Assembly: GCA_015064445.1 (NCBI GenBank)
Contig: SVSE01000008.1
Location: 1-64,000 of the forward strand
DNA from: Oscillospiraceae bacterium
GTDB taxonomy: Bacteria; Bacillota; Clostridia; Oscillospirales; CAG-272
DNA length: 64,000 nt
Direction of reading: 5' to 3'
In this document: piece after piece, positions 4,239-23,215 of the stretch
How the letters are laid out: every line of letters begins with the position of its first letter
Position numbering within the stretch: the stretch's first letter is position 1
Notes under the pieces: generated by a model
What the model saw: the letters and a program-made list of their open reading frames with translations, nothing else
Databases searched by the model: none
Told to the model about the DNA's origin: nothing
Made by a program: the position numbers and the translations under genes

Positions 4239-4270
4239 AAAAAGCACCTTTCGGTGCTTTTTCTTATTTT
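4237..4270. repeat. 34-bp exact repeat, copy 1 (terminator-containing)
   Basis: The 34 bp here are identical to 4768-4801. Each copy contains the hairpin AAAGCACC-TTTC-GGTGCTTT and the stop codon of the minus-strand gene that follows, so the YegP-like gene is flanked by two copies. Confidence 0.85.
4241..4260. terminator. bidirectional terminator between GDPD and YegP-like gene
   Basis: 8-bp stem (4241-4248/4253-4260), TTTC loop, T-rich on both outer sides. It serves both convergent genes. Confidence 0.88.
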
Positions 4271-4662
4271 ATGCTTTCGTCAATTATTTCAGCATTTGGT
4301 GCGTTTACACTAACGCTTTTAATGCCGTTAAGGCATCCGCTTTTAGACTTATATCCATCCTCGCTCATTGCGATGCTCTCGCCGTTTGAGGCTATAAGAC
4401 GATATCTGTATAAGCCCGCCTTGTCAAAATAAACCTCAAATTTGGGGCAGGTTTGGCTCTCAACCTTTTTGAGAGTTTTGTCCTCAATTTTGTTTTCTTC
4501 TATACAACGAACTGCGTGCTTGCCTATGCTTGCAATTCCATTTTTGCAAGCAGATTTTGTTGTATAAATTTGTGAAGAAACTGCGATTTTCTCCATGTTG
4601 TTTGCATAAAGGCTAAAATTAAAGCCTCCTGATGGTGTCTTTTTAATAACGAATTTTCCCAT
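4264..4662 (-). CDS. YegP/DUF1508-type protein with two domain copies
   Basis: A 132-residue protein made of two DUF1508 units, about residues 1-55 and 74-128. Both show the pattern F-x-(Y/F)-x-L-x-(A/S)-N-x-E-x-I-A followed by KSACKNGIASI or KSGCLNGIKSV. The family (YegP in E. coli) folds as a small alpha/beta pseudo-dimer; its function is not established. AAAGGAGAGC precedes the ATG at 4662. It is monocistronic, with promoter and terminator. Confidence 0.85.
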   Translation of the reverse strand: MGKFVIKKTPSGGFNFSLYANNMEKIAVSSQIYTTKSACKNGIASIGKHAVRCIEENKIEDKTLKKVESQTCPKFEVYFDKAGLYRYRLIASNGESIAMSEDGYKSKSGCLNGIKSVSVNAPNAEIIDESIK

Positions 4663-4767: not shown

Positions 4768-4801
4768 AAAAAAAGCACCTTTCGGTGCTTTTTCTTATTT
4801 T
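4768..4801. repeat. 34-bp exact repeat, copy 2
   Basis: Identical to 4237-4270; includes the terminator hairpin of the larA fusion gene (4772-4791) and its stop codon. Confidence 0.85.
4772..4791 (-). terminator. terminator of the ECF-larA gene
   Basis: 8-bp stem with GAAA loop as read on the minus strand, followed by a run of seven T. Confidence 0.88.
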
Positions 4802-6600
4802 TGAACAATTACGGACACGCCGTCGGGGATTGCGACGATTGACAGCTCCTGCTTACCGAGAATCTTGCGCGCTATTGTTAGCGCCTCGTCAATTGAGTGG
4901 GCAGGTGTCATATGCATCTTCTCTATTATATCATCGGGCATATCGGAGATATAAATCACGCTTGCGTGCATCAAAACTCGAAGCATAACCTGTGTCTGCC
5001 ACTGGTCAGGCACGGTTTGAGACCTTGAGCGAGAGAGGAATATATCCATTGTTTTGTTAATATCGGGCTCGTCGGAGAGCTGATGATAGAAATGGTCGCC
5101 ACCTATACCGTCATTCGACTTAGCGAGCATTATAATTACTCCACCCTTTTTAACGGTTGCCTCGCCTGCTGTCATTCCCTTTACTGCTTGGTAAACATTT
5201 TGGTCAAGTGGATAACCACCATTTGTTGTGATAACGACATCGGCAGGGATTGCCTTAGCGCCACAAAGCGAGGAAAGGAAGTCTGTGCCTGCCTTGTGAG
5301 ATAGCTCAACATCTCCTGCTGTTGCAAAGATTACCTTTTTATCTGCGTTCAAAACAACATTTACAATAAATGCGAGCTTTGCCTGCTTGGCTGCCCAAAG
5401 CATATCCTTGTGCATAGGATTGTCCTCGAGAATTCCTGTTCTGCAATTTTCATTAGCAATAAACTCGGAGCAATGGTTTGCAAGAACTGTTTCTCTTGCG
5501 CAAACGCCTGGAAGCACGCTCTTGCGCCCACCTGAGAAGCCTGCGAAAAAGTGTGGCTCAATAAAGCCCTCGCTTACAAGAAGATCTGCCTCGCATGCGA
5601 TTTTGTTAATCTCGCACGGACCACCTGATGGAAGTGTGCCGATATTTACGAGCATATCTCTTTCATCACAATCGTGAATATAGATATTTTCGTTTTCAAC
5701 TATGTCAGCGCCGAACTTATACACAAGCTCGTCCTTTGTAGTACCTCTATGGCACCCTGTGGCGATTAAAATAGTAATTTTCGCATCTGGACTTGCCTCT
5801 CTTATCTCGGCGAGCATCGGTGGAATTATAAGCTTGCTTGGGACGGGGCGAGTATGGTCGCTCGCTATAATTACAATATTTTTCTTGCCCTTAGCAAGCT
5901 CACAAAGGCGCTTTGTACCAACGGGATTTGCAAGTGCGTTTTTGATAAGCGATGCTTCATCAAGCGTTGGCTCATACCTCTCTATTGAGGATTCGAGCAC
6001 GCCCAAAAGCTCCTCGCCCTTGAAATTGTATTCTATTTTTTCCTTACCATATGGGAATGCTACACGCTTCATTTTAGTTATTTCCTTTCTTTTTATAAGG
6101 CTAATAATCGTTGGAATAAGTAATGCCTGCAAAATTATTCCTGGCAGGGCATCTAAAAATCCACCTACAATAAATGCCTTAATGGTAAATGACTTTCCTC
6201 CAACGCCAAGCAAGATTGCCTTTGCTATTCCCCAAACGATTCGTCCAGAGATTTGCGCAATTCCAAGCGACGCCAAGAGATATGGTGTTGTTTTCTTTTT
6301 TGATAGCGACCAGAAAATTCCTATTACGAATCCGTATGTTGCAAGCTCAAGCGCCATCCAAATTGCGTTTGGATAAAGTGGTGGCATTGAGAATATAAGT
6401 GAGCGCAAAAATGGCAATATCAATCCGACAATCAGACCATATGGCGCACCACATATAAGCCCACAAAGCATAACCACAATATGCATAGGAAGAAGCGAGT
6501 CACCAATTTCCTTTATTTGTCCTGTGATAAGAGGTAGGACAATACCAAGCGCCAAGAAAAGCGCCGATGTAACTATTTTGTGTAATCTTTTGTTTTGCAT
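4795..6600 (-). CDS. larA: ECF transporter S-component fused to nickel-dependent lactate racemase LarA
   Basis: One 601-codon frame encodes two complete proteins. Residues 1-172 are a hydrophobic ECF-type substrate-binding component (about five or six membrane segments, LLPMHIVVMLCG near 36). Residues 177-601 are a full-length LarA (425 residues). Counting from Met177, the pincer-nickel cofactor and active-site residues fall exactly where they do in Lactobacillus plantarum LarA: Asp72, Arg75, His108, His174, Lys184 and His200 (motifs SDHTRPVP, TGCHR, EPHFFAGFSGGRK, ANH). There is no stop between the parts, but the Met177 codon (6072-6070) is preceded by AGAAAGG, so LarA may also be made separately. 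LarB, LarC and LarE are not in the window. The S-component substrate is unknown; a cofactor precursor or nickel is a guess. Confidence 0.88.
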   Translation of the reverse strand: MQNKRLHKIVTSALFLALGIVLPLITGQIKEIGDSLLPMHIVVMLCGLICGAPYGLIVGLILPFLRSLIFSMPPLYPNAIWMALELATYGFVIGIFWSLSKKKTTPYLLASLGIAQISGRIVWGIAKAILLGVGGKSFTIKAFIVGGFLDALPGIILQALLIPTIISLIKRKEITKMKRVAFPYGKEKIEYNFKGEELLGVLESSIERYEPTLDEASLIKNALANPVGTKRLCELAKGKKNIVIIASDHTRPVPSKLIIPPMLAEIREASPDAKITILIATGCHRGTTKDELVYKFGADIVENENIYIHDCDERDMLVNIGTLPSGGPCEINKIACEADLLVSEGFIEPHFFAGFSGGRKSVLPGVCARETVLANHCSEFIANENCRTGILEDNPMHKDMLWAAKQAKLAFIVNVVLNADKKVIFATAGDVELSHKAGTDFLSSLCGAKAIPADVVITTNGGYPLDQNVYQAVKGMTAGEATVKKGGVIIMLAKSNDGIGGDHFYHQLSDEPDINKTMDIFLSRSRSQTVPDQWQTQVMLRVLMHASVIYISDMPDDIIEKMHMTPAHSIDEALTIARKILGKQELSIVAIPDGVSVIVQK

Positions 6601-6628: not shown

Positions 6629-6657
6629 ATTTTAACACAATAGCGCGTGTTTTTCAA
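6629..6657 (-). promoter_or_regulatory. promoter of the ECF-larA gene
   Basis: Minus strand TTGAAA (6657-6652), 17-bp spacer containing ACACGCG, TAAAAT (6634-6629). It is divergent from the mscL promoter; the two -35 boxes are only 7 bp apart. Confidence 0.75.
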
Positions 6658-15177: not shown

Positions 15178-16206
15178 TTATCTCAAATCAGCAATATCCA
15201 AAATGAGTCTTTCAGTCTTTTCCCAACCGAGACATGGGTCAGTAATTGACTTACCGTAAATGCCCTCCTCTGCCTTTTGACAGCCGTCCTCGATATATGA
15301 TTCAATCATAAGTCCCTTTACGAGCTTGCAAACATCTGCGTTGTGTCTTGTGCTATGGAGAATTTCCTTTGAAATTCTTACCTGCTCTGCCCACTTCTTG
15401 CCAGAGTTTGCGTGGTTGGTATCAACTATAACGCCTGGGTTTACAAGGTTTGTCTTTCCATAGAGCTCAAGAAGATTCATAAGATCCTCATAGTGATAGT
15501 TTGGAAGAGATTGACCGTGCTTGTTTACATATCCACGAAGGATTGCGTGAGTAAGTGGGTTGCCCTCACTTTCAACCTCCCAGCCACGATAGATAAATGT
15601 GTGCTTGTGCTGACCTGCGGTAATTGAATTCATCATAACAGAAAGGTCGCCACCTGTTGGGTTCTTCATACCAACTGGAATATCAAGACCACTTGCTGTA
15701 AGACGATGCTGTTGGTTTTCAACAGAGCGCGCGCCTACTGCAACATATGAAAGCAAATCAGAGAGGTATCTGTGGTTTTCTGGATAGAGCATTTCGTCAG
15801 CGCATGAGAAGCCTGTTTCCTCCATAGCTCTCATATGAAGCTTACGAATTGCGATGATTCCCTTAAGCATATCAGGATTTTCGTTTGGATTTGGCTGATG
15901 AAGCATTCCCTTGTATCCGTCGCCTGTTGTTCTTGGCTTGTTTGTGTAGATACGAGGAATGATAACAATCTTGTCCTTAACCTTTTCCTGTACGCCTCTA
16001 AGTCTTGTTATGTAATCAATAACTGCATCCTCTCTATCTGCTGAGCAAGGACCGATTACGAGTGCGAGCTTATTACTTTTGCCTGTGAAAATATCTTGTA
16101 TTTCCTTATCGTTTTCTGCCTTCTTCTGAGCGAGCTCGTCAGAAATAGGATACATCTCCTTAATCTCCTTTGGAGTTGGGAGCTTCCTTTTAAAATTCAT
16201 ATTCAT
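15178..16206 (-). CDS. aroF: 3-deoxy-7-phosphoheptulonate (DAHP) synthase, class I AroG-like
   Basis: A 342-residue enzyme that condenses phosphoenolpyruvate and erythrose-4-phosphate, the entry step to chorismate. Seen: VIGPCSADRED near residue 50, PRIYTNKPRTTGDGYKGM near 84, and the metal/ligand segment VDTNHANSGKK near 262. These are typical of AroF/G/H-type synthases. There is no fused ACT or chorismate mutase domain. It lies downstream of tyrA in the operon, with AAAGGA 16213-16218 as ribosome site. The paralog letter (F, G or H) cannot be decided. Confidence 0.95.
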   Translation of the reverse strand: MNMNFKRKLPTPKEIKEMYPISDELAQKKAENDKEIQDIFTGKSNKLALVIGPCSADREDAVIDYITRLRGVQEKVKDKIVIIPRIYTNKPRTTGDGYKGMLHQPNPNENPDMLKGIIAIRKLHMRAMEETGFSCADEMLYPENHRYLSDLLSYVAVGARSVENQQHRLTASGLDIPVGMKNPTGGDLSVMMNSITAGQHKHTFIYRGWEVESEGNPLTHAILRGYVNKHGQSLPNYHYEDLMNLLELYGKTNLVNPGVIVDTNHANSGKKWAEQVRISKEILHSTRHNADVCKLVKGLMIESYIEDGCQKAEEGIYGKSITDPCLGWEKTERLILDIADLR

Positions 16207-16234
16207 AGCTTTTATTTCCTTTCGTAGGGGTTAG

Positions 16235-17092
16235 TTATTTTTTATCGAAATATTTTCTGCGCTCGGTTGAAATGCGCATCATCTCACGCATTTTTTCCGT
16301 ATCTTCATTTTCAAGGGCATCGCGCAATTCCTTGAACTTGGACAAAAAGAGGTCCATTTGAGAGATAAGCTCGTCCTTGTTGAGCAAGAAAAGCTCACTC
16401 CACATAGCATCGTTTATCTTTGCAATTCTTGTAAGGTCACGGAAGGAGTCTCCTGTATAATCAACAAGATTCTTGCTCTCCTTACAATCCATAAGAGAAA
16501 CTGCAATACAGTGTGTTAGCTGTGAGAGGAAGCCTATCATCTCATCGTGCTTTTCAGGCGAAAGCTCGCAGACTGTTTTAAAGCCGAGCAAGCGTCCTAT
16601 CTGCTTTGTTGTTTCAATTGCGGATTCTGTATTTTTTTCAGTAGGTGTAACAATATAGTTGGCTTGAGCAAAAATAGATTTATCGGCATTTTGAACACCA
16701 TATACCTCTTTACCTGCCATAGGATGCGCACCGACAAATTCAACATCGTCACGAAGCATATCCTGAATTTTGTACACGATTGGGCTTTTTACACCCGTTA
16801 CATCGGTAATGAGCGCGCCTGACTTAAAGTACGACTGGTACTTGTCAATCCAGTCAATAAACACCTTTGGATAAAGTGCGAACACCACCACATCAAATTT
16901 TGACACATAGTCCTCTGTAACCTCGGTTGTACCGTGGGCAATCAGTCCGTTTTCGACAGCATAATCAATCGAAGACTGACTTCTTGTGATTGCGCCGACC
17001 TCGTAGCCCAAATCGGTCAATGCCTGTGCATAGCTACCGCCGATAAGTCCAAGACCTACTATCAGAAATTTTACATCATTTATTACTTTCAT
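16235..17092 (-). CDS. tyrA: prephenate dehydrogenase
   Basis: A 285-residue NAD-dependent enzyme that converts prephenate to 4-hydroxyphenylpyruvate for tyrosine. The N-terminus has a Rossmann motif VGLGLIGGSYA; AHPMAGKE near residue 127 and SQLTHCIAVSL near 195 are family signatures. No ACT domain is present at the C-terminus. The ATG at 17092 was chosen because it overlaps the aroA stop as ATGA and has GAGGA upstream; a second ATG five codons earlier lies inside aroA. Confidence 0.94.
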   Translation of the reverse strand: MKVINDVKFLIVGLGLIGGSYAQALTDLGYEVGAITRSQSSIDYAVENGLIAHGTTEVTEDYVSKFDVVVFALYPKVFIDWIDKYQSYFKSGALITDVTGVKSPIVYKIQDMLRDDVEFVGAHPMAGKEVYGVQNADKSIFAQANYIVTPTEKNTESAIETTKQIGRLLGFKTVCELSPEKHDEMIGFLSQLTHCIAVSLMDCKESKNLVDYTGDSFRDLTRIAKINDAMWSELFLLNKDELISQMDLFLSKFKELRDALENEDTEKMREMMRISTERRKYFDKK

Positions 17093-18291
17093 TTTAATTC
17101 CTCGCATTTGACACTATGAGCGCGCAATACCTCGAAAAAGTCAGGGTAGCTCTTTGACACGGCCTCTGCACCGTCAATTTCAGCGCCAACAGCTGTTGCA
17201 AGCACGCTTAATGCCATCGCTATTCTATGGTCATTGTGGGAGCTAAGTGGCACGCATGGCGCTTTTAGCTCTCCCTTGTTTATTTTCACTGCGTTTTCAT
17301 ACACATCTACGCGAATTCCAAGCTTAGAAAGCTCCTCTGCCATAGCAGATGCACGGTCGCTTTCCTTGATTTTGAGTCGTCTTGTGCCTGTGATATATCC
17401 ACCCTCGCAATAAGCGCAGAGTGCAAATAATACAGGTGCAAGGTCGGGGCAAGAGGAAATGTCTGCCTCTAAATATCCCTTTTTAATTTGCTCAAAAAGC
17501 TCAAGGTATGCCTTGTCTCCCTGCTTAGATGCGTAATTTAAGCCATTTACAGACACAGGTGCGCCCAAAATTTTAAACGCATCAAGGAACGCAGAGTTCG
17601 AAAAGTCGCCCTCTACTATCGTGTCCTGGCTAATATATTTTTGATTTCCCTTAATATAAAACTCGTTGTCTGCTCTTTCCACGATTTCAATACCAAAACG
17701 AGAAAGGCAATCAAGTGTGATATCTATGTATGGTCTGCTTTCAAGCTCGGTTGTGATTTTCACAACACTATCGCCATCGAGCATTGGCAAGGCGAAAAGC
17801 AAGCCTGTAATAAACTGACTGCTTATGTCTCCTCTTACCTCGTATGTGCCAGAGCGAAGCTTGCCATCAAAGCGTATAGAATCCTTTGTATATTCTACTG
17901 AAATTCCACACAATGCACAAATATCCTCGTAAACGCTTATACCACGAGAAATCAAGCGTTCTGTTCCCTTAAATACGCACACTCCCCCTCGCGAAAGTGC
18001 GATAGGAATGAAAAATCTAAGTGTGCTTCCGCTCTCTCGGCAATTGAACTCGTTGCCAAGAGGTGCGCCTTTTTTCTGAAAAACAACCACATCGCCCGAC
18101 TGGGCGTAGGCTACCCCAAGCGCCTTTACTGAATCAAGAGTTGCCAAAATATCCTCGCTTGGTGCGATGCCAGAAACAGTACATTCCTCGCCCGAGAGTG
18201 CCGAGCAAATAAGAAGCCTGTGTGCATAGCTTTTCGAGGGTGGGGCATTAAATACTCCACTTGGCAAGCCCTTTTCTATTTTGATTTTCAT
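17089..18291 (-). CDS. aroA: 3-phosphoshikimate 1-carboxyvinyltransferase (EPSP synthase)
   Basis: A 400-residue enzyme that joins shikimate-3-phosphate and PEP. Seen: PPSKSYAHR near residue 17, ESGSTLRFF near 86, the active-site region CPDLAPVLFALCA near 283, and KESDRASAM near 310. The segment equivalent to NAGTAMRP of E. coli reads ESGSTLRF here, so the proline is replaced by phenylalanine; this changes the glyphosate-contact loop, though its effect cannot be told. The start codon overlaps the aroQ stop by 4 bp. Confidence 0.95.
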   Translation of the reverse strand: MKIKIEKGLPSGVFNAPPSKSYAHRLLICSALSGEECTVSGIAPSEDILATLDSVKALGVAYAQSGDVVVFQKKGAPLGNEFNCRESGSTLRFFIPIALSRGGVCVFKGTERLISRGISVYEDICALCGISVEYTKDSIRFDGKLRSGTYEVRGDISSQFITGLLFALPMLDGDSVVKITTELESRPYIDITLDCLSRFGIEIVERADNEFYIKGNQKYISQDTIVEGDFSNSAFLDAFKILGAPVSVNGLNYASKQGDKAYLELFEQIKKGYLEADISSCPDLAPVLFALCAYCEGGYITGTRRLKIKESDRASAMAEELSKLGIRVDVYENAVKINKGELKAPCVPLSSHNDHRIAMALSVLATAVGAEIDGAEAVSKSYPDFFEVLRAHSVKCEELK

Positions 18292-18731
18292 TTTTTCTCT
18301 TTCATTCTTTCTATTAAAAAGTCGATAGCCTCGGTATAGCCTGCAAAGCCCTTACCACAAATTGTTTTTACTGCTACCTGTCTTACATAGCTTATACTTC
18401 TAAAATCCTCTCTTGCGCTAACATCGGAGATGTGAACCTCAACAGTTGGAATAGAAACCGCCTTTAAGGCATCAAGAATTGCTATGCTTGTATGTGTATA
18501 GGCTGCTGGATTGAAAACAATTCCGTCAACCTTATCATAATATGCCTTTTGAATTGCGTCAACCAAATCGCCCTCGTGATTAGATTGATAGAACTCAACC
18601 TTAACCTTGCGAGTAAGCGCGTGGTCGGTTACGATTTGAACAAGGTCATTATAGGTGTTGCCACCATATATTTCTGGCTCTCTTATGCCAAGAAAGTTAA
18701 TATTTGGTCCGTTAAGAACAAGAATTTTCAT
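18288..18731 (-). CDS. aroQ: 3-dehydroquinate dehydratase type II
   Basis: A 147-residue dodecameric-type dehydratase. Seen: LNGPNINFLGIREPEIYG with the catalytic Tyr near residue 22, the flexible-loop SNHEGDLVDAI near 50, FNPAAYTHTS near 73, and VEVHISDVSARE near 97. Length is typical. It overlaps both neighbours by 4 bp (ATGA), so translation is probably coupled. Confidence 0.96.
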   Translation of the reverse strand: MKILVLNGPNINFLGIREPEIYGGNTYNDLVQIVTDHALTRKVKVEFYQSNHEGDLVDAIQKAYYDKVDGIVFNPAAYTHTSIAILDALKAVSIPTVEVHISDVSAREDFRSISYVRQVAVKTICGKGFAGYTEAIDFLIERMKEKK

Positions 18732-19966
18732 CCAAAAAATTCTCCTTTTATAATCTCTGCGACCTGTACAACAGTTCCGTTTGCAGGAACTACAGCATCT
18801 GCGCAGGATATGTATTTTGAATATCTTTCGTTATATCTTTTTCTTAGTGCTTCGTAATCAGATGCTGTTGGACGGTCCGAGGTTGGAGTCAAAAGGTCAA
18901 GCGCGCGATTAAGGAAATAAACGCGACCATTCTGCTTCATATATCTTACATTCTCGTCCCTTAGGATTGCGCCACCACCTGTGGCGATAATTGCACCATT
19001 TTTGGCGCAAGCCTCTTTTACTGCCTCACTCTCAACCTCACGGAATTTTTCCTCTCCATAAAGAGCAAAATATTCAGAGATTTCCATACCTATCCTCTTC
19101 ACAATTTCGTCATCGGTGTCGATTAGCTCTCTACCTGTTTGTGAGGCAAGATAATGTCCTACTGTTGTTTTGCCACACGATGGCATTCCAACAAGGACGA
19201 TATTTTCCTTTTGTGAAAGGATTTCGTTAAAGGTAGCTGTGCAAAGCTCCTCACTTATTTTGTTGCCTGTAAATATTTCAGATGCATAAATAGCCTGTGA
19301 AACGAGCATATAAAGACCACTCTCAGCCTTTATTCCCTTTTTTCTCGCATCGAGAACTATATTTGTGCGAAGTGGATTATAAACAACATCAATTAGTCCC
19401 TCGAGCTTTGGAAAGTCGTTTACATCTATTATTTTGCCCTCGTTTTTAGGATACATTCCTACAGGAGTTGTATTTAGTATAAATTCTGCATCAGAATGCT
19501 CATTTAATACATCCTTATATAGAACATCGGCGCCCTCGCCCTCTCGTCCTACGCGAACGATTTGTCTTACTCCCAAATCACTCAAAACAGCGTATCCTGT
19601 TTTTGCAGTTCCACCACAGCCGAGAATAAGAGCCTTTTTATCCTTCAAATCTATTTTGTTGCGAAGGATAAGCGCACGCATTCCCATATAGTCGGTGTTA
19701 TAGCCATAAAGCTTACCGTTTTCGTTTTTAACGGTATTAACAGCGCCTATTTTTTTTGCATTATCGGAAACGAAATAAAGGTATGGGATTGCCTTTTCCT
19801 TATACGGAATAGTTATATTGATGCCCTCAAAGGTGGGATTTGACAAGAAATCTCCAAGCGCATCGGGTGCTATCTCATGAATTTCGTATTTATAATCTGC
19901 TATTCTTTCGTGAATTTCGCGTGAGAAGCTATGTCCTAAATGCTCTCCTATAAGTCCGTATCTCAT
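18728..19966 (-). CDS. aroE-aroK: fused shikimate dehydrogenase - shikimate kinase
   Basis: A 412-residue bifunctional protein. Residues 1-250 are shikimate dehydrogenase: GHSFSREIH at 11, catalytic Lys56 (IPYKEK) and Asp92 (YNTDY), and the NADP motif GCGGTAKTG at 116. Residues 254-412 are shikimate kinase: Walker A GMPSCGKT at 260-267, IDTDDEI near 282, and the shikimate-binding GGG at 330-332. The two domains catalyse consecutive steps, so fusion could channel shikimate. It overlaps aroC and aroQ by 4 bp each. There is no separate aroE or aroK in the window. Confidence 0.95.
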   Translation of the reverse strand: MRYGLIGEHLGHSFSREIHERIADYKYEIHEIAPDALGDFLSNPTFEGINITIPYKEKAIPYLYFVSDNAKKIGAVNTVKNENGKLYGYNTDYMGMRALILRNKIDLKDKKALILGCGGTAKTGYAVLSDLGVRQIVRVGREGEGADVLYKDVLNEHSDAEFILNTTPVGMYPKNEGKIIDVNDFPKLEGLIDVVYNPLRTNIVLDARKKGIKAESGLYMLVSQAIYASEIFTGNKISEELCTATFNEILSQKENIVLVGMPSCGKTTVGHYLASQTGRELIDTDDEIVKRIGMEISEYFALYGEEKFREVESEAVKEACAKNGAIIATGGGAILRDENVRYMKQNGRVYFLNRALDLLTPTSDRPTASDYEALRKRYNERYSKYISCADAVVPANGTVVQVAEIIKGEFFG

Positions 19967-21057
19967 TTTATGCCTTTCAAGAAAATATCTGTTCCATATC
20001 TTTGGGCAATCATATCAGCAACTGCAAGCGCACAAACGCTATCTACTACAACACATGCACGTCTTACGATTGCAGGGTCGTGTCTGCCCTTTATTTGAAG
20101 TGTTACCTGCTCGCCACTTGTAAAGTCAACTGTGTCCTGCTCCTTAGCAATTGATGGTGTCGGCTTTATAGCGAGGTTAAGCACGATTGGCATTCCGTTT
20201 GTAATTCCACCGTTTATGCCACCGTTATTATTTGTTTTTGTTGTAATTTTTCCACCCTTTATTTCAAAGGCGTCATTTGCCTGGCTTCCTCTCATTTTTG
20301 CCATATCGAAGCCAGCGCCAAATTCGATTCCCTTAACGCCACCTACTGAGAATAGTGCGTGGCTCAAAATGCTCTCAACGCTATCGAACCAAGGCTCTCC
20401 AACGCCTGCGGGAATTCCGTAAATTGCTGTCTGCAAAATTCCACCAACACTATCGGTGTCCATTCTCGCATCCTCAATTTGCGCAATCATCTTATCGCCC
20501 TTGTCTATATCAAGAACTGGGAATTTAGCCGATGCAAGTGCGTCTATTTCTGCGCTAATGTTATCAAAAGCGTTATCACGAACACCTGCACATTCAAGAA
20601 TGTGAGTGCCGATTTTTATGTTTATTTTTTCGAGCGCCTTCATAGCAATAGCGCCTGCTGCCACAATAGAAGCTGTAATTCTACCCGAGAAGTGTCCACC
20701 ACCACGATAGTCCTCGAAGCCGTGATACTTGCAATATGCGCTATAATCTGCGTGGGAGGGTCTTGCCTTGCCATACTGATAATCAGCGCTTTTTGTATTC
20801 TCGTTAGGAATTACGATAGCAATAGGTGTGCCTGTGGTTTTGCCCTCAAAAACACCACTTAAAATGCTATAATTGTCCTTTTCAACGCGGGGAGTGTCCG
20901 TTTTTCCACTTGGACGACGCTTTGAAAGCTGTGCGTCGATAAAGTCGAGGTCAACCTCTATTCCAGGACAAAGTCCGTCGATTACTGCGCCTATGGCATC
21001 TCCGTGACTTTCTCCAAATATTGTCACGGCTATGCTTTGACCGAATGTATTTTTCAT
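19963..21057 (-). CDS. aroC: chorismate synthase
   Basis: A 364-residue FMN-dependent enzyme that makes chorismate from EPSP. Seen: GESHGDAIGAVIDG near residue 14, RRPSGKTDTPR near 48, GGGHFSGRITA near 118, and RHDPAIVRRA near 325. Length is typical. One base separates its ATG from the aroB stop (TGA-T-ATG), and GGAGAT serves as ribosome site. Confidence 0.97.
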   Translation of the reverse strand: MKNTFGQSIAVTIFGESHGDAIGAVIDGLCPGIEVDLDFIDAQLSKRRPSGKTDTPRVEKDNYSILSGVFEGKTTGTPIAIVIPNENTKSADYQYGKARPSHADYSAYCKYHGFEDYRGGGHFSGRITASIVAAGAIAMKALEKINIKIGTHILECAGVRDNAFDNISAEIDALASAKFPVLDIDKGDKMIAQIEDARMDTDSVGGILQTAIYGIPAGVGEPWFDSVESILSHALFSVGGVKGIEFGAGFDMAKMRGSQANDAFEIKGGKITTKTNNNGGINGGITNGMPIVLNLAIKPTPSIAKEQDTVDFTSGEQVTLQIKGRHDPAIVRRACVVVDSVCALAVADMIAQRYGTDIFLKGIK

Positions 21058-21058
21058 A

Positions 21059-22069
21059 TCAAAATATCTCCGTTATATATTTTTTCATATCTGACACCTT
21101 GATTTTTTTCATTTCAAAGGTGCCTATTTCCTCACAAAATACTACTGTTACCTCGTCGCCTGACGCCTTTTTGTCATGAGTGATAAAATCAATTAGCTTG
21201 TCTGCATCTGCCTTTATTTCAGTTGGCAGATTATATTTTTTAAGCACAGGCAATAGTCTTTCTCTAACGCTCTTAGCGCTCATGGGAAGCATTCCAAGTG
21301 AAACGCACTCTCCGTGAAGCAATGCTCCAAGGTTATTGTCGCTTTCAATTGCGTGTCCTATTGTGTGTCCGAAGTTAAGCACACGACGGAGTCCCTGCTC
21401 CTTTGCGTCCTTTTCAACCACATCGCGCTTGATTTTAAGAGATTTTTCAATTATTTCGTCAATATCGTCACCCAGACTCTCGCTTCTTTCAATTAATTCA
21501 AAAAGCGCCTTATCGAAATTGAGCGACATTTTTATTGCCTCAGCCATACCTGCGCTAACTTGTCTTTTATCAAGAGTTGCAAGCGTGTTTGAGTCAATAA
21601 CTACTCTTTTGGGCTGATAAAATGCACCAACTATATTCTTAACGCCAAGAAAATCTATTGCAACCTTTCCACCTATCGAGGAGTCAACCTGTGACAAAAG
21701 TGTGGTTGGAATGTTATAAAAATCAACGCCCCTCATATAGCTTGACGCAACGAAGCCTGCAAGGTCGCCAACAACGCCACCACCAACTGCGACAACGCAA
21801 TCTGTACGAGTAAATGATGCCTTTACCATTTCGCCAAGAAGCATTGCGTAATTATCAAGGCACTTGCTCGCCTCTCCCTGCTCAATTGTCACAATGTAAG
21901 GGTCCTTACATTTGTCAGCCACAGCCTTAGCATATTCTGCGGGAACGCCACTATCGGTTACAATAAGAGCCTTGCGATTAAGGTTCAAAAGCTCGTCCAC
22001 GCGAGAGAGTGCCCCACGCTCGAGTATTATATCGTAGCTTTGCTCTGCTAAATTCACCGAGATTGTCAT
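21059..22069 (-). CDS. aroB: 3-dehydroquinate synthase
   Basis: A 336-residue NAD- and metal-dependent cyclase. Seen: GGGVVGDLAGF near residue 96, STLLSQVDSSIGGK-like motif TTLLSQVDSSIGGKVAID near 121, and the zinc-binding FGHTIGHAIE near 233. The ATG follows AAGAGGT, 10 bp after pheA. Confidence 0.96.
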   Translation of the reverse strand: MTISVNLAEQSYDIILERGALSRVDELLNLNRKALIVTDSGVPAEYAKAVADKCKDPYIVTIEQGEASKCLDNYAMLLGEMVKASFTRTDCVVAVGGGVVGDLAGFVASSYMRGVDFYNIPTTLLSQVDSSIGGKVAIDFLGVKNIVGAFYQPKRVVIDSNTLATLDKRQVSAGMAEAIKMSLNFDKALFELIERSESLGDDIDEIIEKSLKIKRDVVEKDAKEQGLRRVLNFGHTIGHAIESDNNLGALLHGECVSLGMLPMSAKSVRERLLPVLKKYNLPTEIKADADKLIDFITHDKKASGDEVTVVFCEEIGTFEMKKIKVSDMKKYITEIF

Positions 22070-22079
22070 TTTATACCTC

Positions 22080-23177
22080 TTATTTTATGTCTCTTGTTTG
22101 GTATGTACCTGCCAAGCGCAAGCGGTCTGTTGTAGCGCCAAGCGCCCTTAGCATCTCCTTGCCCTCTGCTGTATCAATGCTTCCGTCTGCCTCAATGTAG
22201 AAATAGTAGCTCCAAAGAAGCTCCTTCATAGGACGGGAGCGAAGGTTTCTCATATTAAATCCGTGTGCACCGATTATATCAAGCGTCTTTGCAAGTGCAC
22301 CAGCCTCGTTCTTAACTGTAAATGTAAGAATAAAGTGGTTATTCATCTTGCCTTGTGACTTAACATTATTTTGTGCGCGTGAAAATACTGCAAAGCGAGT
22401 TGTATTATTTCTGCTTGTGTTTACAGCATTTTCGATTATTTTAAGTCCAAATATTTTTGCTGTTTCATCAGATGCGATAGCGCCTATGCTTGTATCTGCC
22501 TTTTCCCTAACGAACTGAGCTGCAACCGCTGTATTTGAAAATGGCTCACTCTCATAGCCGTGCTTTTCAATAAATTCAGCGCATTGAGAGAGCGCCTGTG
22601 GATGGCTTACAACTCTCTTAATAGAATCGAGTGTTGCGGCCTCAACGCCCATAAGGTTATGAACGATTTCAAGGTCAATTACCTGATTTACATAAAGAGA
22701 ACCCGAGAAAATGAGGTCCATAACTGTACCAACATCTCCTGCATAGCTATTCTCAATAGGAAGCACACACGCATCACATTCTCCTTTTTCCACAGCATTA
22801 TATGCGCTGGCAAAATCGGAATAGGACACAGGATTTCCCTCTGGAAAAAGCTTCTTAGTAGCGATATATGCATATGCACCAGGCACGCCACTATAAGCAA
22901 CCTTTATTCCCTCATTGAGCCTTGATTGATATGAGCGAGAAATTGCCATTGTTTCCTTCAAGAACTGTACATAATATTCACGCACAGCTTGATTTTCAAT
23001 AAAGGATGCATTCTTGCTTATTATTTCATTTTCTCTTGAGGTATCAAGAATAGGAAGCGCGTGCTCCTTCTTATATGAAGCGACCATTTCTGATGCCTGC
23101 ATTCTCTTTTCAAAAAGCCTCGCCATCTCAGCGTCAACTTCATTGATTATTTTTCTTGCCTTTTCAAGCTCATTCAT
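22080..23177 (-). CDS. pheA: bifunctional chorismate mutase / prephenate dehydratase
   Basis: A 365-residue P-protein for phenylalanine. Residues 1-85 form an AroQ-type chorismate mutase (KIINEVDAEMARLFEKRM). Residues about 92-270 form the dehydratase (GVPGAYAYIATKKLFP, then NNTTRFAVFSR with the key TRF). Residues about 282-355 form an ACT domain (ALAKTLDIIGAHGFNMRNLRSRP), the usual site of phenylalanine feedback. The ATG at 23177 is preferred; in-frame TTG and GTG codons lie 3-4 codons upstream. It is the first gene of the operon, about 30 bp after the predicted transcription start, so there is no room for a classical attenuator. Confidence 0.94.
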   Translation of the reverse strand: MNELEKARKIINEVDAEMARLFEKRMQASEMVASYKKEHALPILDTSRENEIISKNASFIENQAVREYYVQFLKETMAISRSYQSRLNEGIKVAYSGVPGAYAYIATKKLFPEGNPVSYSDFASAYNAVEKGECDACVLPIENSYAGDVGTVMDLIFSGSLYVNQVIDLEIVHNLMGVEAATLDSIKRVVSHPQALSQCAEFIEKHGYESEPFSNTAVAAQFVREKADTSIGAIASDETAKIFGLKIIENAVNTSRNNTTRFAVFSRAQNNVKSQGKMNNHFILTFTVKNEAGALAKTLDIIGAHGFNMRNLRSRPMKELLWSYYFYIEADGSIDTAEGKEMLRALGATTDRLRLAGTYQTRDIK

Positions 23178-23215
23178 TTTATTCACCAAATTTCTTTTAT
23201 TATATAATATAAATA

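Follow-up and report, generated by a model that had tools for sequence, protein, structure and literature searches.

A gene on the minus strand of the window (the whole stretch of 64,000 nucleotides from Oscillospiraceae bacterium contig SVSE01000008.1 that was analysed) encodes an ECF transporter S-component joined in frame to a complete lactate racemase, LarA. We think it probable that the subfamily to which this S-component (hereafter S) belongs takes up a compound that other microbes release, namely the nickel-pincer nucleotide (NPN), the nucleoside left on its dephosphorylation or a precursor very late in its synthesis, and that LarA captures the cofactor. That S serves the LarA cofactor is supported, at the level of genome sequences, by gene linkage and by a distribution complementary to that of LarC.

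The fused gene and its surroundings

The preliminary description of this DNA had claimed a single uninterrupted frame of 601 codons without naming a strand; we confirm the frame and place it on the minus strand, with its ATG at 6600 and its stop at 4797–4795 (Table 1). Both parts score above their family cut-offs, residues 8–165 against PF12822 (ECF_trnsprt; 43.3 bits, cut-off 30.7) and residues 180–600 against the NCBIfam model of Ni-dependent LarA (NF033504; 607 bits, cut-off 460, profile positions 2–422 of 422), in agreement with the earlier assignment of an S-component and a full-length LarA to one chain. The internal AGAAAGG that had been reported ahead of Met177 was also located, at 6090–6084.

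An mscL-like gene lies divergently upstream of the fused gene. From a promoter-like site and a hairpin, both consensus matches only, the fused gene seems to be a stand-alone unit; the region holds 10 promoter-like sites against 6.1 expected, and the terminator-hairpin scan returned 3 hairpins against 2.3 expected. Riboswitch control was rejected: at Rfam gathering thresholds the window yielded a tRNA and nothing else, and the matches in 17 related loci (RNase P, a tRNA, Gut-1 and pemK RNA) included no riboswitch. Immediately downstream of the fusion, a small protein with two DUF1508 stretches is encoded (4264–4662, minus strand). Elsewhere in the window, a run of aromatic amino acid genes (15178–23189) contains an apparent join of shikimate dehydrogenase and shikimate kinase (18728–19966, minus strand), both judged by eye from the translations.

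Table 1. Features of the fused gene and its flanks (window coordinates)
Feature	Position	Strand	Basis
ECF S-component + LarA fused frame, 601 codons	4795..6600	-	ORF, Pfam/NCBIfam matches
S-component domain, residues 1-172	6085..6600	-	PF12822; alignment of 78 rows
AxxxA motif in helix 1 (A13 to A17), described EcfT docking motif	6550..6564	-	motif as given in the accessible part of PMC11109136
Residues 173-176, end of Lys-rich junction ahead of LarA Met	6073..6084	-	translation, junction comparison
AGAAAGG, Shine-Dalgarno-like, within the frame, upstream of LarA ATG (6072-6070)	6084..6090	-	sequence, hybridisation energy
LarA, 425 aa; cofactor residues D72, R75, H108, H174, K184, H200; substrate residues F175, F176, W358, Q359	4795..6072	-	profiles, alignment
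Promoter-like site TTGAAA-17-TAAAAT, TG before second hexamer, upstream of fused gene	6629..6657	-	consensus match only
Hairpin just past LarA stop, T-runs on both sides; bidirectional terminator candidate	4770..4793		hairpin scan, which lists it on + only

The S-component domain

Membership of the ECF S-components is indicated by PF12822 scores of 43–48 bits against the cut-off of 30.7, covering profile positions 2–168 of 169, and all 78 family members match PF12822 at E ≤ 0.001. P23, G33, H40, C46, R66, E85, Y89 and R120 are among the residues invariant across the 78 S rows, and C50 is kept in 99% of them; H40, C46, C50, R66, E85 and R120 are absent from those columns in four other, loosely alignable S-components of the same genome. 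The His and Cys of helix 2 are residues that would suit a nickel–sulphur cargo, as the two Arg would a carboxylate or phosphate group. The window member has A13 and A17 at the AxxxA docking motif, for which 57 of the 78 rows read A/A and 76 have small residues.

The one NCBIfam subfamily matched, the folate S-component TIGR04518, gave 26.3 bits, below its cut-off of 60. A PDB search with the S family profile found no relative at E ≤ 0.1, and one with the S sequence no convincing relative (best 4tkr, E = 0.41). S belongs to an uncharacterised ECF subfamily. With the PF12822 group, which we take to comprise FolT, PanT, RibU and relatives, it shares the family match and the docking motif, and it differs in its own invariant H/C/R/E/Y set and in falling below the TIGR04518 cut-off. 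The genome carries five PF12822 loci, and a shared EcfAA'T module is therefore likely. According to the accessible part of PMC11109136, 5TMR sensor proteins combine the S-component fold with C-terminal cytosolic domains. A C-terminal cytosolic domain is common to both, but the 5TMR proteins have no AxxxA and their attached domains are of signalling and other kinds; PMC11109136 nowhere uses the word 'racemase'.

The LarA domain

The LarA part matches both Pfam LarA domains as well, and its closest solved structures are 2yjg (lactate racemase apoprotein), 6c1w, 5huq and 8ezf. All six NPN/catalytic residues (Table 1, numbered from Met177) occur at the positions that the preliminary description had listed, and they are intact in 54 of 54 LarA rows (52 different genes), whether the genome is LarC− S+, LarC+ or an exception. 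At the four substrate positions stands FFWQ, the pattern that PMC11770544, as far as accessible, gives for lactate racemases (its LAR group); the same source links Q359 in LarAH43 to a glycerate preference. Compared with L. plantarum LarA1 and the NF033504 family, the domain is alike in its score and in its full set of cofactor and catalytic residues; it differs in being borne at the C-terminus of an S-component, in a genus with no LarB, LarC or LarE above cut-off.

LarA, S and NPN biosynthesis genes in the genus

LarA needs NPN, which is made by LarB, LarE and LarC. These usual companions of LarA in the same cell were not found above cut-off in any of the 29 genomes of the genus: LarC (PF01969) had no match at E ≤ 0.001, LarE (TIGR00268) reached at best 49 bits against 150, and LarB (NF033503) gave weak matches of up to 45 bits against 175, which are probably PurE-like. 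In a control set of 14 genomes, the same searches for LarC, LarE and LarB gave matches above cut-off in 6, 5 and 6, respectively. The LarB and LarE searches covered the genus and the LarC search the whole order.

LarA itself is found in 20 of the 29 genomes. S accompanies it in all 20, against 3 of the 9 genomes lacking LarA (p = 2e-4); it is fused to LarA in frame in 5, directly upstream but out of frame in 9, after LarA in 2 and on another contig in 4. With none of LarB, LarE and LarC above cut-off in the genus, the expected cargo is NPN or a very close form, and niacin as the imported precursor is rejected on the same ground. Of the earlier suggestion that S imports a cofactor precursor, the link to the cofactor is borne out by gene linkage and LarC complementarity, whereas a simple precursor such as nicotinic acid or NaAD is not.

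S and LarC across the order

We scored 394 genomes of the order for LarA (61 at E ≤ 1e-80), LarC (107 at E ≤ 1e-6), S (191 at the search cut-off of E ≤ 1e-15) and Lar_N (116 at E ≤ 1e-6, 79 of them strong, that is with a best Lar_N E ≤ 6e-36). Since assemblies are incomplete for many of these genomes, the absence of a gene from any one of them is soft evidence. LarC and S tend to exclude one another (Table 2); among genomes with a strong LarA, S is present in 41 of the 48 without LarC and in 5 of the 31 with it. Weak-Lar_N genomes show the pattern too, and it persists when each genus is counted once.

Table 2. Co-occurrence of LarC and S (numbers of genomes; genera in the last line, mixed genera being given their commonest state)
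Set	LarC+ S+	LarC+ S-	LarC- S+	LarC- S-	p
All 394 genomes	23	84	168	119	4e-11
79 strong LarA	5	26	41	7	7.5e-10
37 weak Lar_N	2	11	18	6	0.001
Without Lar_N	16	47	109	106	
One state per genus (48 genera)	2	17	24	5	8e-7

Exactly one of the two genes occurs in 67 of the 79 strong-LarA genomes, against 48.6 when S is shuffled within families (p ≤ 5e-5) and 63.3 when it is shuffled within genera (p = 0.03); for the 65 genomes at least 85% complete, the family-stratified test gives p ≤ 5e-5 and the genus-stratified test p = 0.11. Within one genus, g95, three genomes have LarC without S and three have S without LarC. A LarA tree was built with 73 of the 79 strong genomes as input, six being left out; G215 gave no usable row, leaving 72. 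The tree offers few independent pairs: of 7, S on average opposes LarC in 4.6, agrees with it in 0.2 and shows no difference in 2.2 (median p = 0.125). S and any Lar_N are weakly associated across the order (p = 0.04), and 109 of the 191 S+ genomes match neither Lar_N nor LarC. Because genomes with the importer are usually without the cofactor-making gene, the importer probably brings the nickel cofactor in from outside.

Gene neighbours of S and alternative explanations

Gene neighbourhoods were compared at 72 loci (60 drawn from the order and 12 others; L046 repeats the contig of L123). S was present at 70; the exceptions are L160, taken for LarC, and L044, which has LarA only. A P-loop kinase of the uridine kinase/phosphoribulokinase class forms the partner cluster seen most often, at 15 loci. 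It is either a protein of about 185 aa by itself or makes up the C-terminal half of one of 350 aa, and it matches known families weakly to moderately, staying below every NCBIfam cut-off. Several S–kinase gene pairs overlap by 4 or 8 bases, and in genome G019 (L188:1486-2607, minus strand) S is fused in frame to a uridine-kinase-like P-loop kinase. At L155:6334-7386 (plus strand) and in relatives, an N-terminal part of about 170 aa is joined to the S-linked kinase; the whole L155 protein has no Pfam match at E ≤ 0.001.

At E < 1e-50, a cut set after seeing the gap between scores of at least 203 bits and of at most 68, the kinase is found in 14 of 25 LarA+ LarC− S+ genomes (a random draw from 39 outside the genus) versus 0 of 26 LarA+ LarC+ S− genomes (p = 3e-6), 10 of the latter having weaker matches (at most 68 bits). 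Inside the genus, the same cut returns four LarA genomes with S not beside LarA and two genomes without a LarA match, versus 0 of 16 with S beside LarA, three of which have weak matches of about 50 bits; S therefore pairs with LarA or with the kinase. The window's own genome gave no match to the S-linked kinase, so a nucleoside cargo would there need another kinase.

Other neighbours were seen as well. S lies 12 bases before LarC1 in G182 (L158:6050-7570, minus strand) and 6 bases before LarC2 in G408 (L159:5401-6495, minus strand), neither genome having a Lar_N match, and in the LarC+ genome G112 (L063:2790-3370, minus strand) the S copy that stands beside LarA is itself split over two frames. 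At L137:932-2173 (plus strand) a glycerate kinase-like gene (DUF4147/MOFRL, a family check made for this locus only) adjoins S on the opposite strand, and beyond it lies a regulator-like gene, judged by eye; the same cluster occurs at L138 and L178. The window's own genome (G000) also carries, on contig C13 (L033:145-1995, minus strand), a folate-family S-component fused in frame to FolC in a protein of 617 aa, with 97 bits for TIGR04518 (cut-off 60) and 388 bits for FolC (TIGR01499, cut-off 163). The order of the parts and the single frame are the same as in S–LarA, but whereas FolC modifies its cargo as a substrate, LarA would capture the cargo of S as a cofactor. In the FolC fusion the S-component is on one chain with the enzyme acting on its cargo, which is also the logic proposed for S–LarA.

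The class of the adjoining kinase, together with the many S+ genomes matching neither Lar_N nor LarC, is also what one would expect if S imported, for general use, a pyridine nucleoside or vitamin (the riboside of nicotinamide or of nicotinic acid, or some other nucleoside), which the kinase would convert to the nucleotide; the link to LarA would then be indirect. We consider this unlikely, as it does not account for the 14 genomes of the genus in which S either is fused to LarA or directly precedes it, for S tracking LarA within the genus, for its place beside LarC in two genomes or for the way S and LarC complement each other among LarA genomes.

Less probable still is that no functional link exists, some gut lineages having inherited S and larA side by side and lineage composition producing the anti-correlation with LarC. 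The tree-based independent pairs, which fall short of significance, and the genus-stratified p values would fit such an account. Against it stand the several forms of linkage (S–LarA, LarA–S, S–LarC, S–kinase and two kinds of fusion), a signal that holds within families and within g95, and the S tree, which requires 5 changes of the LarA-linked state, well supported branches making 3 of these unavoidable (bootstrap not settled).

Import of lactate or another 2-hydroxyacid, to be racemised by LarA, had been offered in the preliminary description and now looks very improbable. S does adjoin LarA, and the glycerate kinase-like cluster gene lies beside S at three loci of one genus (family checked in one), but such an importer does not predict the absence of LarC or the S/LarC pattern, the S-linked kinase is nucleoside-kinase-like, S adjoins LarC in two genomes, and ECF S-components are known, in the accessible literature, for micronutrients.

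Junctions and origin of the fusion

The same two-domain order was sought in relatives and is present, with different junction sequences, in four other genomes of the genus (G021, G024, G012 and G003) besides G000. Rather than all relatives having two separate genes, the two are fused in 5 of the 14 genomes of the genus in which S directly precedes LarA. Linker length and sequence differ among the five, and none has a stop. The named relatives are metagenome assemblies and the window's genome is in 13 contigs, but in-frame fusion in four other genomes with different junctions cannot be explained by a single assembly error, and an artefact (a stop or frameshift lost in assembly) was rejected as next to impossible.

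We compared 17 S-to-LarA junctions (14 of the genus plus L040, G159 and G211), 5 fused and 12 separate, the two genes of the latter overlapping by 4 to 14 bases or lying 1 to 16 bases apart. At the LarA starts within the five fused genes, the anti-Shine-Dalgarno hybridisation energy is -5.8 to -8.1, better than at 279 internal ATG/GTG control codons (mean -2.9, p = 0.003) and no different from that at the 12 separate starts (p = 0.92). Because 24% of the control codons also reach -5.5 or better, the start site kept in the five fused genes is no more than suggestive of free LarA being made as well. Since LarA keeps its ribosome-binding site even when fused, we regard the fusion as an apparently labile state of a coupled S–larA pair that slips in and out of frame. 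Membrane tethering of LarA, suggested earlier, is possible; it is not needed, as 9 of the 14 S-upstream genomes keep two genes and the LarA start is kept in all five fused ones.

On a tree of S plus LarA (17 rows), the fused state needs 5 changes, of which well supported branches force 1, and none of 200 bootstrap trees unites the fused rows in one clade. A single ancestral fusion kept by descent is thus not favoured, although the AU test for one clade does not reject it (p = 0.15), and separate origins of the fusions are likely from these sequences.

Proposed function

We postulate that the S domain binds its cargo outside the cell and that its AxxxA helix docks on a shared EcfAA'T module, which would drive uptake; family and motif are read from the sequence, and module and cargo would follow by inference. 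At loci that pair S with the P-loop kinase, a nucleoside would be imported and then re-phosphorylated by the kinase, as the kinase class and its linkage to S suggest. LarA, made beside S or on the same chain, would capture the cofactor through Lys184 and His200 and then racemise lactate or a similar 2-hydroxyacid such as glycerate, the residues being observed and the chemistry that of known LarA. Free LarA may also be produced from the kept internal start. Such uptake would let the cell do without LarB, LarE and LarC.

The NPN-import reading is weakest for the 109 S+ genomes that match neither Lar_N nor LarC, where NPN may be used in other proteins or S may have a second cargo. In the accessible part of PMC11796402, about 15% of genomes are reported to have larB, larE and larC without larA, and non-LarA NPN proteins are proposed; NPN uptake for proteins of this kind could also cover the LarA-less S+ genomes.

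With about as much belief as doubt, we propose S as the first candidate transporter for an organometallic nickel cofactor: an ECF S family that would salvage NPN, or its nucleoside to be re-phosphorylated by the linked kinase, for gut bacteria living without LarB, LarE and LarC on cofactor shed by their neighbours, with fused LarA as a covalent trap and with NPN enzymes yet to be recognised in the S+ genomes that have no LarA.

Implications

NPN biosynthesis by LarB, LarE and LarC is known, and an uptake route would be new within the literature searched. Full-text searches returned no paper pairing lactate racemase with ECF transporter or energy-coupling factor, and no NPN uptake route was found, most subscription papers lying outside the search. 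In their accessible parts, PMC7583248, PMC11770544, PMC11796402, PMC9283937 and PMC7702098 describe no NPN uptake, and the accessible part of PMC12611868, which matched NPN and transporter, concerns sugar transporters. If NPN import by S is correct, NPN would be a shared community nutrient like B12, and LarA genomes seemingly unable to make their own cofactor would be explained. Lactate racemisation in gut communities would then depend on cross-feeding, and the S+ genomes lacking LarA would form a list of places in which to seek the non-LarA NPN enzymes that PMC11796402, in its accessible part, proposes.
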